Origin: Holophaga sp.
Lineage (GTDB): Bacteria; Acidobacteriota; Holophagae; Holophagales; Holophagaceae
Direction of reading: 5' to 3'
NCBI GenBank assembly: GCA_031292735.1
Contig: JARLGP010000029.1
Span: 1 to 40,879, forward strand
DNA length: 40,879 bases
Made by a program: the position numbers and the translations under genes. The notes under the pieces are model-generated. The model searched no databases and was not told the origin of the DNA. It saw nothing but the letters and a program-made list of their open reading frames with translations. Position 1 is the stretch's first letter. Each line of letters opens with the position of its first letter. Of the stretch, positions 19,155 to 37,542 are shown piece by piece.

Positions 19155-20360
19155 ATGGTCGCCAAAGGCAGGATCCTGTTCGTTGATGATGAGCCAAAAG
19201 TCATCGATGATGTGCGACGACAAGCGGCGCTGCTCGGCAACGAGTGGGAGCTCGAGTTTGCCGACAGCGCCGGCAAGGGACTGGAAGCCTTTGCCAGGGA
19301 GCCGTTCAACGTGGTGGTGGCGGATCTGCGCATGCCCGGGATGAACGGGGCCGAGTTCCTGCAGGAGGTCATGGCCCGCTACCCGGCCACCATCCGGATC
19401 CTGGTGGCGGCGGACGCGGACCGGCAGTTGGCCGTGCAGAGCGTGGGGCGCACCCACCAGTTCCTGGCCAAGCCCTGCGACCTGACGGTGCTGAAGTCCA
19501 CCGTGGAGTTCTGCTACCACCATGGCCGGCGGGTGGGCAACGATCACGTGCGCGAGCTGATCGCCCGGATCGGCCAGCTGCCCACGGTGCCGGACCTCTA
19601 CCAGGAGATCACCCACCTGCTGGAATCCGACCGTCGCTCGGTGGACGAGCTGGGAGCGGTGATCGGCCGGGACATCGGCATGACCGCCATGATCCTGAAA
19701 CTGGCCAACTCCGCCTTCTTCAGCCTCAGGCACGCGGTGACCAGCGCCAACGAGGCGGTCTCCTACCTGGGCATCGACCTGCTCAAGGCGCTGGTCCTGG
19801 CCCACGGCCTGTTCGGCCAGGTGGGCGCCTTCCGCATCCCCAGCTTCACCATCCAGCATCTGTGGCAGCACAGCCTCGCGGTGGGCGCGGCGGCCCGGCG
19901 CATCGCCGACGCGGAGGAGCTGGGCTCGCAGCGGGCCAACGAGTTCTTCACCGCGGGGCTGCTGCACGACATCGGCATCCTCATCCTCGCCTCCCGGTTC
20001 CCCGAGGATTACGGCAAGACCCTGGAGATCAACCGGCATTCCGGAGGCGAACTGGAGGCCTCCGAATACCATGTGTTCGGCGCCACCCACTCCGAGGTGG
20101 GGGCCTTCCTGCTGGCGCTCTGGGGCATCCCCGAGCCGGTGGTGCAGGCCGCCGCCTTCCACCACAACATCAGCCACCAGGCGGTCCGCGGCCTTTCCGC
20201 CGCCCTGGCCGTGCATGTGGCCGACACCTTCTACGGCTACAACCCCGAGCACCTGGTCTTTTCCAGGGCCCGGCTGGACGATGGCTACCTGGCCAGCCTC
20301 GGCCTCACCGACCGGATGGTCGGCTGGCTGGCGACGGTGCAGGCCGGGACGACCCGCTAG
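19155..20360 (+). CDS. Response regulator with HDOD output domain
   Basis: 401 residues. The N-terminal receiver (1-125) has FVDDEP, the phospho-acceptor Asp in VVVADLRMPGMNG and Lys in FLAKPCD, but the usual Thr/Ser switch residue is Ala (RILVAADAD). Residues 135-335 form an HDOD domain with IGQLPTVPDLYQEI, IGRDIGMTAMILKLANSAFF, LWQHSLAVGAAARRIA and GLLHDIGILILASRF. HDOD proteins are regulatory relatives of HD phosphohydrolases, often in c-di-GMP or motility control. It follows the glycosyltransferase after 23 bases and may be co-transcribed. Its stop overlaps the stop of the convergent mrp gene. Confidence 0.9.
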   Translation: MVAKGRILFVDDEPKVIDDVRRQAALLGNEWELEFADSAGKGLEAFAREPFNVVVADLRMPGMNGAEFLQEVMARYPATIRILVAADADRQLAVQSVGRTHQFLAKPCDLTVLKSTVEFCYHHGRRVGNDHVRELIARIGQLPTVPDLYQEITHLLESDRRSVDELGAVIGRDIGMTAMILKLANSAFFSLRHAVTSANEAVSYLGIDLLKALVLAHGLFGQVGAFRIPSFTIQHLWQHSLAVGAAARRIADAEELGSQRANEFFTAGLLHDIGILILASRFPEDYGKTLEINRHSGGELEASEYHVFGATHSEVGAFLLALWGIPEPVVQAAAFHHNISHQAVRGLSAALAVHVADTFYGYNPEHLVFSRARLDDGYLASLGLTDRMVGWLATVQAGTTR

Positions 20361-30663: not shown

Positions 30664-32172
30664 TTGAGCGATCAGCTGACCCACAGGCTTTCCCAACTCC
30701 TCTATCGCTGCCTGGAGGATATCGGCAGCACCAAGGCAGCCCTCTACCTGGCCCCGGCGGGATTCGGGCCCTTTCATCTGGTGACCCACTACGGCTGGCC
30801 GCGCGCCACGCCGCCGCCGCAACTGCTGGCTTCCAGCGACCCGCTCATGCGGCTGGCGCACCGGGAACGGCGCTGCTTCGTGCTGAACGATGGCGCGAGC
30901 TATCCCGAACTGCAGGCCTTCAGCCAGGGCAAACAGGACCCACGCTACCTCATCGCCCCCATCTACGATCATGGCGAATGGATCGGCCTGCTGTTGCAGC
31001 GGGACCACAACGGCAGCGAACCCTACAACATGGAACGGCAGGAAGCCCCCACCCAGTTGATCTGCCAGGAGATCGTCCAGGCCATCAAATACTTCAACGC
31101 GCCTGCGGCGCCGGCCGGCGTTCCCGAGCCGCTGCCGGACCGCACCGCGACGCCGATCCGGGTGCCGGCCCCGCCCACTTTTCCCGAACAGCGCAGCTTC
31201 TTCTGGGAAGCCGCCCACCTGCTCTGCCAGGTGATGCCGGCCGCCGCCGTGGCGCTCTGGATCTTCGATCCCATGGAGGACCGCCCGATCCTCGCCTACA
31301 GCGGCATGCCGCTTTCCTCTCCGCTGGAACGGCAGATCATCACCCTGGCCCAGGCCCAGCGCCCGGACCAGCACCCCGTCGATCTGCAGATCCTCACCAA
31401 GGCCGAGCACTACGACCGGAACCCCATCCCCGGCCCGTTCCGCACGCTTCTGCCGATCATGCTGGAGGAGGAGTTCGGCAAGGCGGATCTGCTGATGGTG
31501 TTCCGGGTGGAGGACAACCCGTTCCTGCCCCACGAGCAGGAGTTCATCCGGGGCCTGGCCCGGATGCTGGGCCTGTTCCTGGAGGAAGGCCGGCTGCACG
31601 AGCGCTATCACCAGTCCTTCCTGTCCGTGAGCCATCGCATCCTCGCCTCCGCCGGCACCCAGGTGCCCTACATCCGCGAGCATAGCCTTAACACCGCCGA
31701 GCTCTCCCGGAGCCTGGCCCGGCGCCTGGAGCTGCCATCCCCGGAAGTGGAGGCGGTGACCATCTCCGCCATCCTGCACGACGTGGGCACCCTGCTGCTG
31801 GACCGCAGGATCCTGGACAAACCCACCCTGAGCCCGGAGGACCGCTCCCAGGTGCAGACCCACCCCATCCTGGCCTCCACCTTCCTGAAGGACTTCCATT
31901 TCCCCTTCGACATCCTGCGCATCATCCGCCACCACCACGAGCAGTGGGACGGCCAGGGCTACCCCGACGGCATCGCCGGCGAAGCGATCCCCATCGAAAG
32001 CCGGATCATCCATCTGGTGGAGTCGTTCCAGGTGATGACCACCGGAAGCAACTACCGGGCCGCCAAGTCCATGGCCACCGCCCTGGCCGAGATCCGGCAG
32101 CTTTCGGGGATCCATTTTGATCCGCGCATTGTCGAAGAATTCATCCAAATGCTGGAATCCCGCAAGGGCTGA
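30664..32172 (+). CDS. GAF-like sensor protein with variant HD-GYP domain
   Basis: 502 residues; the start is TTG 30664 with AAGG 8 bases upstream. Two GAF-like regions (about 1-150 and 180-330, separated by a Pro-rich linker) precede a C-terminal HD-GYP domain, the c-di-GMP phosphodiesterase type. The domain has REHSLNTAELSRSLARRL, ISAILHDVGTLLLDRRIL, THPILAS and the HHHEQWDGQGYPDG signature, but HDVGT replaces the usual HDIGK and LVESFQVM has Glu where a metal-binding Asp is normal. Activity is therefore uncertain. It follows cold-shock gene 3 and precedes a pseudopilin-like gene by 38 bases. Confidence 0.88.
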   Translation: MSDQLTHRLSQLLYRCLEDIGSTKAALYLAPAGFGPFHLVTHYGWPRATPPPQLLASSDPLMRLAHRERRCFVLNDGASYPELQAFSQGKQDPRYLIAPIYDHGEWIGLLLQRDHNGSEPYNMERQEAPTQLICQEIVQAIKYFNAPAAPAGVPEPLPDRTATPIRVPAPPTFPEQRSFFWEAAHLLCQVMPAAAVALWIFDPMEDRPILAYSGMPLSSPLERQIITLAQAQRPDQHPVDLQILTKAEHYDRNPIPGPFRTLLPIMLEEEFGKADLLMVFRVEDNPFLPHEQEFIRGLARMLGLFLEEGRLHERYHQSFLSVSHRILASAGTQVPYIREHSLNTAELSRSLARRLELPSPEVEAVTISAILHDVGTLLLDRRILDKPTLSPEDRSQVQTHPILASTFLKDFHFPFDILRIIRHHHEQWDGQGYPDGIAGEAIPIESRIIHLVESFQVMTTGSNYRAAKSMATALAEIRQLSGIHFDPRIVEEFIQMLESRKG

Positions 32173-32210: not shown

Positions 32211-32936
32211 ATGCCTGAACCAAGCGCCACACCCAACCGGCCGGGAGCCCGAGGCTTCATCCTGGTCATGCTCCTGATCTTCATCACCGCCATGGGCATC
32301 TTCCTGACCGTGGCGATCCCTCCGGTGGCCACCGAGGTCCAGCGGGACCAGGAAGCGGAACTGATCTTCCGGGGCGAGGCGATCGCCAACGCGATCCGCC
32401 TGTACAAGGCCAAGACCGGCGGCTACCCGCTGAACCTGGAGGATCTCGTCAAGATACGCCCGCGCATCATCCGCAAGCTGTACCTGGATCCCATGACCCG
32501 CCGGGGGCCCCACGAAGGGGACTGGGAACTCATCACCTCGGTGCAGCCGGGCGCCTCCGGCGACAAGACCGGCCTGCCCATCGTGGGCGTCAAGAGCACC
32601 TGCCAGAAGGACAGCTTTACCGTGTACCACGAAAAGACGCTCATCAGCGACTGGAGCTTTTCGGCCGCCGACAACCTGCTGGGCATCGCCGGGTCGGCGG
32701 CCGCCACCGCCGCCGTCGGCCTGCTGCAGGGCACCACCGGGCAGACCTCCGGGACCGGAACCGACCAGACCCCCTTGGCTCCGGGCAAGACCGGCGCAGG
32801 CAACGGGGTGGACACCTCGAACATCCCCATGGGGGCCGCGCCGTCCCAGAATCCTCCGCCGTCCCAGAATCCTCCGCCGTCCCAGAATCCTCCGGCGGGC
32901 CAGAATCCTCCGGCGGCCCCGGCGCCGGACAATTAG
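32211..32936 (+). CDS. Pseudopilin-like (type II secretion-like) protein with repeat tail
   Basis: 241 residues. RGFILVMLLIFITAMGIFLTVAIPP is a type IV pilin-like helix described here by its position, residues 14-40; it lacks a clear G-F-T-L-x-E cleavage site because the Glu five residues after the Gly/Phe is absent. After the helix, RDQEAELIFRGEAIANAIRL and KTGGYPLNLEDLVKI resemble GspG-type pseudopilins, with a following PMTRRGPHEGDWELI segment. Residues 211-234 are four PSQNPP-type repeats. No other type II secretion gene is adjacent. Function in assembly of a pilus or secretion machine is inferred only from the fold. Confidence 0.78.
   Translation: MPEPSATPNRPGARGFILVMLLIFITAMGIFLTVAIPPVATEVQRDQEAELIFRGEAIANAIRLYKAKTGGYPLNLEDLVKIRPRIIRKLYLDPMTRRGPHEGDWELITSVQPGASGDKTGLPIVGVKSTCQKDSFTVYHEKTLISDWSFSAADNLLGIAGSAAATAAVGLLQGTTGQTSGTGTDQTPLAPGKTGAGNGVDTSNIPMGAAPSQNPPPSQNPPPSQNPPAGQNPPAAPAPDN
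32841..32912 (+). repeat. Four 18-bp tandem repeats coding PSQNPP
   Basis: CCGTCCCAGAATCCTCCG occurs three times in a row, and a fourth unit differs at its start (GCGGGCCAGAATCCTCCG). The first three copies are identical at DNA level, so copy number may change by slippage without frameshift. Confidence 0.9.
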
Positions 32937-34097: not shown

Positions 34098-34132
34098 CAG
34101 CCGTAACGGAGCAAGCTCCGTAACGGCTGCTA
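34095..34132. terminator. Bidirectional hairpin over two convergent stop codons
   Basis: An 18-bp stem (17 of 18 pairs match) with a 2-base centre. The left arm starts with the TAG stop of dacB (34095-34097) and the right arm ends with the complement of the TAG stop of the minus-strand fusion gene (34130-34132). No T run follows on either side, so it may end transcripts by structure alone or protect 3' ends. Confidence 0.75.
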
Positions 34133-36466
34133 GCCGACCAGCGCGCCCAGGGATTCCTTCAGTTTCCGGAGGTCGAAGGGCTTGCCCAGGCTGGGCGCCT
34201 GGGTCCGCTCCAGGAAGGCCCGGGTGGTGGGATCGAAGGTGTCGCCGGTGGTGAACAGGATCCGCCCGGTCATCTCCGGCTGGTTGGTCTGCAGCCACTC
34301 GTACAGCTGGATTCCGGTGAGCCCGGGCATGCGGATGTCGGAGACGATGCCGTCGAAATGGCCCGCCTGGAGCATCGGCAAGGCATCGGTGGCCAGGGCG
34401 CAAGGCACCACTTCGCAGCCCCATGAGCCGATGGCGTCCACCAGGCATTCGAGCAGGAACGATTCGTCATCCACCACAAGAACCCGCTTGCCCTGAAGGG
34501 CCGTCGAGGGATTGGGAAGCTCGGCTTCAGCCATGGGCAACTCCACAAGAAACGCATTGCCCAGCCCTTCCTGGCTGCGCACGGAGATTCTTCCCCCATG
34601 CGCCTGGGCGACACCGGCCATGACGCACAAACCCAGGGATTCCATATCCTGGACTTCGGCCAAAGCGAAGGCACGCCTGGCTTCGGGTTCGGTCAGCGCG
34701 CGGCCGGTGTTCTGGCAGACCAGCTGCAGGGTCCTGCCGTTCTGCCGGGTGCCGAGCCGCAGCCGCTTGGCGGCGGAGGCCGCAGACGGGCCGATCCCGC
34801 CGCGCAGCAGGCAGACGATGCCTTCCCGGAGCATGTCCGGGTCCAGCGCGCTGGCCTGCAGGTTGGGGTCCAGGGTGAATTCCAGGGAGACTCCCGCAGC
34901 CACGGCCTCCGCCTCCACCTTCCGGGCGGCCTCCTGGAGCAGGGTGTTGAGATTGGCCGGTTCCAGCCGCGGCACGGCGGGATAAAGCACCATCAGCAGG
35001 GGCCGCATCAGGTCCTGGGCGTTCTCCACGGATTGCAGCAGTTTGCCGATCCGGTCGGGCTCCGCCGAGCCTTCCGCCAGCATGTCCTTCTGCAGCAGGA
35101 TGGGCGTGAGCCGGTTGGCGATGTCGTTGAACAGCTTGGGCATGATCCGGCCGAGACCGGCCGTGGTTTCCAGCTCCTGCAGCTTGTGCTGCAGTTCCTG
35201 CTGCACCCCCAGGTCGCGGATCAGGGCCGAATTGGCCAGCACCCGGTCATCGCTGCCGCGGATGGGCGCGTAGGTGATGCTGGCGGGGAACTCGCTGCCG
35301 TCCTTGCGCAGCCGCGAGGTGACCACGTCGCGGATGGTCTGCCCCTTGCCCACCTGGGCGATGACCTGTTCCAGCTCACCGGCCCGGCTGGGCGGCGTGA
35401 GCTGGTGGAAGGTGCGGCCCACGATTTCCGCGCGGGGATAGCCGAAAATCTGCTCGGCGGCCGCGTTCCAGGTGAGGATCCGGCCGTCGGCGCTGAACGA
35501 GATGATGGCCTCGCCCACGCTCTGGATCAGCCCCTCCAGGTAGCGGCGGGTCTTCAGGTTGTCCTGGTTGGCCCGCTCCAGCTGGGTGTAGATCTGCCGA
35601 AGCTCCTCGTTCTTCTTTTCCAGGGCCTCCTTGACCGTCTTCAGCTCGGAATAGAGCCGGGCCGTCTCCATGTTGGACTTGAGCGCATCCTCGAGCAGGT
35701 CCTGGGCGTCGGCCACCTTGCCTGGAATCAGGTCGGCCACGCTCACGTTCTGCCGGAGCACCATCGATTCCGCCTGCGGGGGTTCCTCGCTGGGCGGAGG
35801 CAGCTCCTGCATGTTGGCCCGGACATTGGACTCGATCAGATTCAACATCTCATCGAAATCCTTGATCTTCTTGTCCAGGTGATACTTCCGGAACGTGGTG
35901 CCCACCGTCTCCCGGGTGATGGCCAGGAACGTGTCCAGCACCCCGTCGCCCCGGCTGGCCACCGACTCGAAATAGGGCACCGAACGGAAATTCAAGCGCC
36001 GGTTCATCACCCCCACCGGCATGGCGTCCGGCAGATCGCGCTTGTTGTACTGCATGACGAAAGGGATCTGCTTGATGTTCAGACGGTTGGCATTGAGGTT
36101 GTGGTAGAGGTTGGAAAGCGAGTCGACATTCTCCTGCATCTGGGCGTCGCTGGAATCCGCCACGAAAACCACGCCGTCCGCACCGCCCAGGACCACCCGC
36201 CGACTGGCGTCATATTGCACCTGCCCGGGAACGGTATATATCTGAAGATGAATGGAATTGCCGTAGATATATCCGAGATTGATGGGCAGCAAGTCGAAGA
36301 AGAGGGTTCGGTCCTCCTGGGTGTTGACCGAAAACATCTCTCCCCGGTTGGATTCCATGCACATGGCGTGCAACGACCGCAAATTGGTCGTCTTGCCCGA
36401 GAGACCCGGGCCGTAATAGACCAATTTCAGCAGTATTTCATTAGCACGCGTGTTGAATTGGACCAT
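34130..36466 (-). CDS. MglA-type GTPase fused to PAS, degenerate histidine kinase and receiver
   Basis: 778 residues. Residues 1-195 are an MglA-family small GTPase: P-loop GPGLSGKTT (19-27), EDRTLFFD with Arg53 and Thr54, switch II VPGQVQYD with Gln82, and QYNKRDLP (139-146). Residues about 255-320 form a coiled coil; 320-435 a PAS domain (GEAIISFSADGRILTWNAAA). The next 210 residues align with HisKA/HATPase domains, but the phospho-acceptor His is missing (MPKLFNDIANRLTPIL where GGIAHDFNN...L is usual) and the N-box Asn and DxGxG are absent. Residues about 658-778 are an intact receiver (VVDDES, VSDIRMPG, FTTG, GKPF). MglA controls polarity and motility in Myxococcus with MglB; no MglB is nearby. 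It is a single-gene unit convergent with dacB. Confidence 0.9.
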   Translation of the reverse strand: MVQFNTRANEILLKLVYYGPGLSGKTTNLRSLHAMCMESNRGEMFSVNTQEDRTLFFDLLPINLGYIYGNSIHLQIYTVPGQVQYDASRRVVLGGADGVVFVADSSDAQMQENVDSLSNLYHNLNANRLNIKQIPFVMQYNKRDLPDAMPVGVMNRRLNFRSVPYFESVASRGDGVLDTFLAITRETVGTTFRKYHLDKKIKDFDEMLNLIESNVRANMQELPPPSEEPPQAESMVLRQNVSVADLIPGKVADAQDLLEDALKSNMETARLYSELKTVKEALEKKNEELRQIYTQLERANQDNLKTRRYLEGLIQSVGEAIISFSADGRILTWNAAAEQIFGYPRAEIVGRTFHQLTPPSRAGELEQVIAQVGKGQTIRDVVTSRLRKDGSEFPASITYAPIRGSDDRVLANSALIRDLGVQQELQHKLQELETTAGLGRIMPKLFNDIANRLTPILLQKDMLAEGSAEPDRIGKLLQSVENAQDLMRPLLMVLYPAVPRLEPANLNTLLQEAARKVEAEAVAAGVSLEFTLDPNLQASALDPDMLREGIVCLLRGGIGPSAASAAKRLRLGTRQNGRTLQLVCQNTGRALTEPEARRAFALAEVQDMESLGLCVMAGVAQAHGGRISVRSQEGLGNAFLVELPMAEAELPNPSTALQGKRVLVVDDESFLLECLVDAIGSWGCEVVPCALATDALPMLQAGHFDGIVSDIRMPGLTGIQLYEWLQTNQPEMTGRILFTTGDTFDPTTRAFLERTQAPSLGKPFDLRKLKESLGALVG

Positions 36467-36751
36467 GGGTATTCATCCAGAGGGAACTCACGTAGGTAGA
36501 TTAGCATTACTTCCGTTTCCTTTTCGGACCGGGGCCTTGGGATTCGCCAGGTATTGCTCACATATCCTCATTGAAGGGACCCGGGTGGGAGCTGGTCTGC
36601 CTCCATGATAGAATTCGCAGCACCCATTGTTCACCCGGGCCGCGCCCGGCGGAAGTTGTTTTCTTTCAAATACAGGAACAGGAGTTGCATCGTTGGCCGG
36701 GCCAGGGCATTCCCAGAAAACACCAGCAGCACCCCGTGGGGTGAGATGGTG

Positions 36752-36855: not shown

Positions 36856-37542
36856 GTGAGCGTTCCCCGCCACGTCGCGATTATTATGGACGGCAACGGC
36901 CGCTGGGCCGCGCAGCGGGGCTGGGCGCGGATCAAGGGGCACAAGGCCGGGGTGCAGGCGGCCCAGGACATCCTGGAAGCGGCATCCGACCTGGGGATCG
37001 AACACCTGACCCTCTATGCCTTCTCCACCGAAAACTGGAAGCGCCCGGGGCTGGAGGTGACCATGATCATGGCCCTCCTGCGCATGTACCTGCGCATGTT
37101 CCTGCCCAAACTGCGGGCCAAGGGCATCCGCTTCCATCACCTGGGGGCGATGGAAGGGCTGCCCCAGGGGATTCGCCAGGATCTGGCCAACCTCGAGGCC
37201 CAGACCGCCGGACACCAGGGCATGGTGTTCCACCTGGCGGTCAACTATGGATCCCGCCTGGAGCTCGCCCAGGCCGCCCGGCGCTGCGTGGAGGACGGGC
37301 TGGCCCCGGCCGAGGTCACCGAGGAGGCCCTGGCCCGGCGCCTGTGGACGGCGGGCGTGCCGGACGTGGACCTGCTGGTCCGCACCTCCGGGGAACTGCG
37401 GATCTCCAATTTCCTGCTCTGGCAGGCCGCCTATGCGGAGTTCTACATGACTGAATGCCTTTGGCCGGATTTCCGGGGCCCCCAGCTGCGCGCGGCGGTG
37501 GACGCCTATGCCCAGCGCGAGCGCCGGTTTGGTGGCATATGA
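36856..37542 (+). CDS. uppS: Isoprenyl transferase (undecaprenyl diphosphate synthase)
   Basis: 228 residues, start GTG 36856 shortly after a GGGGGG run. UppS condenses isopentenyl diphosphate with farnesyl diphosphate to make the C55 lipid carrier for peptidoglycan and other glycans. Family marks are HVAIIMDGNGRWAAQRG (catalytic Asp), GHKAG, LTLYAFSTENWKRP, NYGSRLEL, VDLLVRTSGELRISNFLLWQ and YAEFYMTECLWPDF. The product supplies the glycosyltransferase at 18178 as well as the peptidoglycan pathway. It is followed by cdsA, which may overlap its stop. Confidence 0.96.
   Translation: MSVPRHVAIIMDGNGRWAAQRGWARIKGHKAGVQAAQDILEAASDLGIEHLTLYAFSTENWKRPGLEVTMIMALLRMYLRMFLPKLRAKGIRFHHLGAMEGLPQGIRQDLANLEAQTAGHQGMVFHLAVNYGSRLELAQAARRCVEDGLAPAEVTEEALARRLWTAGVPDVDLLVRTSGELRISNFLLWQAAYAEFYMTECLWPDFRGPQLRAAVDAYAQRERRFGGI

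Follow-up and report, generated by a model that had tools for sequence, protein, structure and literature searches.

MglA in its GTP-bound form is an output switch, and MglB is its GAP. How such a Ras-like switch works when it is built into one polypeptide with a sensor, a histidine kinase fold and a receiver is the question raised by a gene of Holophaga sp. (Holophagaceae, Acidobacteriota) on contig JARLGP010000029.1 of assembly GCA_031292735.1, the 40,879 analyzed nucleotides of which are called the window here.

Domain organization of the fusion protein

The preliminary description of this gene, made from the sequence alone, proposed a single chain of MglA, PAS, pseudo-histidine kinase and receiver, and this architecture was borne out by the open reading frame, a Pfam domain search and AlphaFold2 (Table 1). 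HATPase_c scored 24.5 bits in the window protein, against a Pfam cut-off of 26.4. The AlphaFold2 model, built on a broad 60-row alignment, contains every domain at a mean pLDDT of 85.7, with a pTM of 0.49 and the mutual placement of the domains not fixed. The long helix at residues 254-316 is of the coiled-coil type by appearance.

Table 1. Features of the fusion gene and its surroundings (positions in the window; residues in the window protein)
Feature	Position	Strand	Basis
Whole fusion gene	34130..36466	-	ATG start, single 778-residue ORF; same protein in 47 loci
MglA Ras-like GTPase, residues 1-194	35885..36466	-	
Helix and low-confidence linker, residues 195-253	35708..35884	-	AlphaFold2 helix 204-218; pLDDT <50 at 226-253
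Long helix, residues 254-316, carrying junction motif LLEDALKSNMETARLYSELK	35519..35707	-	AlphaFold2 helix 254-316
PAS sensor domain, residues 309-420	35207..35542	-	Pfam PAS, E 6.4e-16, 310-418
DHp-like two-helix region without phospho-acceptor His, residues 419-494	34985..35212	-	
N447 codon, H-box position	35126..35128	-	Alignment with relatives
Degenerate CA (HATPase_c) domain, residues 499-647	34526..34972	-	Pfam match below cut-off, motif sites lost, AlphaFold2
Receiver domain, residues 660-777	34136..34489	-	Pfam Response_reg, E 1.2e-15; D666, D667, D710, T739, K762
D710 codon, predicted phosphorylation site	34337..34339	-	
Promoter-like hexamers 5' of the fusion gene	36605..36633	-	Weak: 1 found vs 0.6 expected (shuffles)
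uppS (undecaprenyl diphosphate synthase), divergent neighbor, conserved context	36856..37542	+	Pfam

The GTPase residues named earlier (G21, R53, T54, Q82 and NKRD at 141-144) are all found in the translation, and they are invariant in 46 of the 47 loci described below, the remaining one (L032) being cut there by the contig end. The P-loop, NKxD, the intrinsic Arg finger R53 and the catalytic Q82, which are the residues of group 1 MglA, are thus all present, and the solved Myxococcus MglA structure 6h17 aligns to residues 5-186 of the window protein (E 1.1e-55). MglA is also the most constrained domain of the family: in the first 60 rows of each of two sets, with and without the H-box His, its mean pairwise identity is 0.96 and 0.92, respectively, compared with 0.48-0.72 for DHp, 0.58-0.64 for CA and 0.69-0.76 for the receiver. 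Judged from these residues, the MglA domain of the fusion should cycle GTP. In contrast to the single-domain group 1 MglA of Myxococcus xanthus and Thermus, the window protein adds about 584 residues of PAS, kinase fold and receiver. A 2014 survey of prokaryotic small GTPases discarded sequences longer than 240 residues (PMC4316618); the window protein, with 778 aa, lies above its single-domain limit (<240 aa), and MglA fusions would fall outside the survey because of this exclusion.

Distribution and gene neighborhood

A search for the same architecture in other genomes returned 49 loci from genome contigs, 47 of which encode the window protein at a best-segment identity of 61-85%; the other two (L048 and L049) encode other kinases. 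Forty-six of the 47 carry the titles Holophagaceae, Geothrix or Acidobacteria, six of them as named Geothrix strains (fermentans, rubra, limicola, campi, oryzisoli and fuzhouensis), and one (L007) is titled Deltaproteobacteria; L032 and L039 are contig-cut. Database proteins of this kind, among the best 120 of 7624 matches, are titled "PAS domain S-box protein", "response regulator", "histidine kinase" or "hypothetical protein". The fusion gene adjoins uppS in 44 of the 47 loci, and in the three where uppS was not seen (L013, L032 and L037) the sequence on the upstream side of the match is no longer than about 320 bases. Since many relatives share the gene beside uppS, it looks old and vertically inherited. 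The possibility that an error in assembly or sequencing joined two genes, a refutation that had been set out for the fusion, found no supporting point and has a negligible probability: 47 loci, including the six named Geothrix strains, encode one protein, 44 of them next to uppS.

On one side, the neighbors of the fusion are uppS, cdsA, dxr and rseP; the conserved neighbors are envelope genes, not motility genes. On the other, downstream side, the window holds genes for a carboxypeptidase, a pilin-like protein and a GAF-HD protein, which recur only in L001-L003 among the family loci. The pilin-like protein (32211-32936, +) has a hydrophobic N-terminus, a repeated SQNPPP tail and no Pfam match. 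The GAF and HD-GYP-type protein near the fusion (30664-32172, +; HD_5 E 2.1e-34) is possibly related to c-di-GMP. A Receiver-HDOD protein (19155-20360, +) is a second receiver protein within the window.

MglB-type genes and other MglA proteins

No Robl_LC7 domain was found among the 15 window ORFs scanned, including the four flanking neighbors, and the fusion is thus not part of an mglB operon there. In nine of the 47 cases the genome of the locus was examined; each of these genomes contains three or four MglA matches, including the fusion, and in all nine a separate MglA lies beside a Robl_LC7 (MglB-type) gene, where the best Robl_LC7 match of the genome sits. The view that MglA normally works as a separate switch is incomplete, as MglA fusions occur frequently among the Acidobacteriota sampled, in the nine genomes alongside the separate MglA. 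The further MglAs of the nine genomes usually have longer tails. Between two of the genomes (G001 and G007), identity is 93% for the MglA of the fusion, 88% for the mglBA-type MglA, and 84% and 78% for the remaining two. The tails of several MglA paralogues (L069, L073, L059, L106, L118 and L120) are of low complexity, acidic or Pro-rich, and carry at or close to their ends a short strand-like stretch that is alike in several, e.g., VVEVPVVLDRSLFSG...KLYLK in L073. The pilT family was above the cut-off in 9/9 relatives' genomes; among 14 control genomes, 13 were matched and 5 were above the cut-off. As this family is broad and widespread, pilT is weak support for pili as a target.

In the conservons (Cvn) of Actinomycetota, an MglA-family GTPase is encoded with histidine-kinase-like and MglB-like proteins (PMC4316618, PMC13343842), and CvnA8 autophosphorylates on H183 (PMC13343842). 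The window case resembles these systems in the pairing of an MglA-family GTPase with a histidine-kinase-like protein. The conservon components, however, are separate genes, whereas the window protein is one chain that lacks the His at its site and has the MglB-type gene encoded elsewhere. The gene order cvnA-cvnB-cvnC-cvnD was not found at the window locus, where the neighbors differ.

The kinase part and its variation in the family

The claimed loss of the phospho-acceptor His, the N-box Asn and DxGxG is correct for the window protein. The H-box position 447 is N, and the N-box positions 552/556 are C/G. G1 has lost its Asp (N586) and reads G588 and A590 at its following sites, and the G2 sites are M-S-G, with two of three glycines lost. 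The part still has a DHp-CA fold by the predicted model and by fold matches. The structure check thus agrees with its description as degenerate: AlphaFold2 gives the fold, and the His and ATP-site residues are absent in the sequence.

The pseudokinase assignment, which stands for the window protein, does not extend across the family. The H-box residue, scored by alignment instead of strict sequence patterns, is His in 31 of the 47 loci, Asn in 10, Asp in three and Thr in two, and unreadable in one; because the His is present in 31 of the 46 readable loci, the kinase fold may still act in relatives. However, in the His-bearing rows whose G2 was inspected (L022, L008, L029, L031 and P0039), no more than one of the three G2 glycines is left, which makes their activity uncertain. 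A 165-row family set was assembled from the window protein, 45 loci and 119 of 120 database proteins, leaving out L032, L039 and one database row that was short; it is biased in that its database part is the best 120 of 7624 matches (7999 scored candidates). The H-box His is present in 85 of these rows and absent in 80. In the family trees, the His state requires two changes. An outgroup-rooted tree nests the His-bearing Geothrix branch in His-less lineages, with weak root support (78) and long branches meeting. The His may have been lost repeatedly, or lost and then regained, and the weak root and long branches separate neither history from the other.

Caulobacter DivL, which is not known to have a GTPase domain, offers a comparison. 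It is a kinase fold without the His, described as a histidine kinase that has been remodeled into a sensor of a phosphorylated receiver (PMC4211667). The H-box site of DivL is occupied by Tyr (PMC4211667), where the window protein has Asn447, and the likeness, as predicted by the model, would be one of DHp-CA fold only.

The receiver

The receiver residues D666, D667, D710, T739 and K762 are intact in the window protein, and D710, T739 and K762 are invariant in all 41 loci that cover these sites; one database row (P0029, among the best 120 of 7624 matches) deviates at T739, near its end. In the 165-row set, with its database part limited to those best 120 matches, D710 is present in 85/85 His rows and in 61 of the 80 His-less rows, i.e., in all 61 that cover the site; the other 19 are gapped, 17 being receiver-less and two ending early. 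That D710 is kept in proteins whose kinase part no longer has its acceptor is consistent with a receiver charged by another kinase, which is plausible on sequence grounds. The 17 receiver-less rows form one branch (support 80), all without the H-box His, and five of the 47 loci have no receiver. The existence of this branch disfavors a general need for the receiver. In Myxococcus, MglA is governed by a receiver-domain protein, RomR (PMC10329633); in contrast to the window fusion, RomR is a separate protein, consisting of a receiver, a disordered region and a Glu-rich helix (PMC10329633).

A wider group of sensor-linked MglA proteins

In the phylum of Geothrix fermentans, MglA was matched in at least 111 of 149 genomes, with two of these matched no better than at E 8e-4 to 9e-4, and at least 12 of the 149 contain the window family, at E-values of 2.2e-119 or lower. 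Other fusions, read from this phylum sample and from a protein search (best 120 of 4122 matches), are MglA-PAS (407-429 aa), MglA-GAF, MglA-PAS-kinase (627-656 aa) and MglA-GAF-kinase. A tree was built from 62 selected MglA domains, and in it a branch supported at 97/94 splits 14 standalone or tail-extended proteins from all 48 that are fused to a sensor. MglA-PAS and the window family are joined at 100/99. The branch of the window family itself has low support (82/36), and the GAF-kinase fusions do not form a single clade. A profile of the linker (residues 240-318) scored at least 10 bits in 56 of 135 further MglA proteins, including three window-family members (P0169, P0220 and P0233), and less than 10 bits in 79, including several GAF-kinase fusions. 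None of 810 controls, which were reversed or block-shuffled sequences and not real unrelated coiled coils, reached 10 bits (best 9.1).

The sister position of MglA-PAS proteins of 408-429 aa bears on a reading in which MglA, helix and PAS are the functional unit, the PAS alone sets the GTPase, and the kinase and receiver are a decaying add-on. The 17-row receiver-less branch points the same way, as does the DHp mean pairwise identity of 0.48 in the His-less rows vs 0.72 in the His rows (first 60 rows each). We regard this reading as unlikely, because the CA fold and the receiver are open and conserved, with D710, T739 and K762 unchanged wherever the loci reach them.

The kinase parts were compared in an alignment of 111 C-terminal parts (108 distinct) from 92 database proteins, seven genome loci and 12 window-family rows, a sample drawn by MglA similarity and thus no census. 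The N-box Asn, the G1 Asp and the three G2 glycines occur together in 75 distinct parts, 35 with the His and 40 without it, where it is replaced by Ala, Gln, Asp, Glu, Gly, Thr, Ser, Asn, Val or Leu. Kinase parts that keep the ATP site but have no phospho-acceptor are therefore common in this sample; the P0133-type and P0125-type proteins and L105, for example, are MglA-GAF-kinases of this kind. In the MglA-PAS-kinase group the His is missing, and so are two or more of the three G2 glycines. Outside this alignment, an H-box was seen in L100 and L101, and none was recognized in L090 and L112. L090, a 607-aa frame from another genome of the phylum sample, is an MglA with a degenerate kinase-like C-terminus. 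These 40 GAF-type relatives, motif-intact and His-less, suggest that the class may include proteins that bind ATP but phosphorylate no His, which would allow the window protein to remain a kinase by an unusual route, with another acceptor residue or with ATP use without the His. This is highly improbable for a protein that has also lost the N-box Asn, the G1 Asp and two of the three G2 glycines.

In 118 + 118 genomes of two further phyla, those of G158 and G157 (seed loci titled Nitrospirae and Deltaproteobacteria, respectively), all three strong matches with frames longer than 600 residues (L118, L119 and L120, with L120 covered up to residue 902 of 954) proved to be MglA followed by a low-complexity tail, and no kinase motif was found in the tails by eye; this reading covered strong matches with frames of that length, three further long frames having matched weakly (E 5e-5 to 9e-4), and MglA-PAS or MglA-GAF proteins may occur among the shorter frames of these phyla. 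We tentatively suggest, at clearly less than even odds, that sensor-linked MglAs form an undescribed class, with kinase-bearing members read only from Acidobacteriota, in which the kinase was repeatedly stripped of its phospho-acceptor and now serves as a built-in GTPase regulator, i.e., a GEF-, GAP- or effector-gate that responds to ligand, ATP or phosphorylation of the receiver. A described MglA-kinase fusion was not found in the literature searched, which left most subscription papers outside its scope.

Possible mechanism and implications

Our preferred reading, at a probability of about 0.45, is that the sensor-linked MglA acts as a one-protein signaling hub, in which PAS and receiver act via an inert kinase fold on the tethered GTPase. 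The MglA domain would be the output switch and would cycle GTP, with the separate MglB-type protein of the genome as its GAP in trans. The long helix, probably dimerizing, would tie it to PAS, kinase fold and receiver. Some other kinase would charge the receiver, and the kinase fold would serve as a dimer scaffold and docking surface relaying the states of PAS and receiver. The relay may alter the nucleotide state, the effector access or the position of the GTPase in the cell, and the downstream process is likely to be polarity or type IV pili. We infer GTP cycling, dimerization, trans phosphorylation, the direction of signaling and the target of the fusion.

This hub model is supported by the invariant GTPase residues and the strong constraint on MglA, by the retention of D710 where the H-box His is lost, by the Robl_LC7 gene beside a separate MglA in 9/9 relatives' genomes, and by related proteins that join MglA to PAS or GAF and kinase, many with the junction motif. 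The DHp-CA fold kept by the kinase part, as in DivL (PMC4211667), also argues for it. It is weakened by the conserved neighbors, which are envelope and not motility genes, by the His kept in 31/46 readable loci and by the pTM of only 0.49. Neither receiver nor kinase appears essential to the core, because 17/165 rows are receiver-less and the closest outgroup is MglA-PAS alone. The flow could also be reversed, with MglA as a GTP-dependent localization module that brings the PAS-pseudokinase-receiver scaffold to a pole, with partners binding there to the phosphorylated receiver or to the DHp surface. In Myxococcus, the leading pole is reported to be the site of action of GTP-bound MglA (PMC3420945), and the scaffold folds are retained despite the lost catalytic motifs; however, MglA is the most conserved part and scaffold-free MglA-PAS proteins exist, suggesting an output role, and reversed flow seems the less likely direction.

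With switch and sensor fused in one purified protein, any coupling of a receiver or PAS to a Ras-like GTPase should be directly measurable, and Geothrix strains carry the fusion. The wider class provides natural variants in which the receiver is lost, the His is kept or lost, or the ATP site is kept without the His. In Acidobacteriota, G-protein switch and two-component signaling may thus operate as one molecule.
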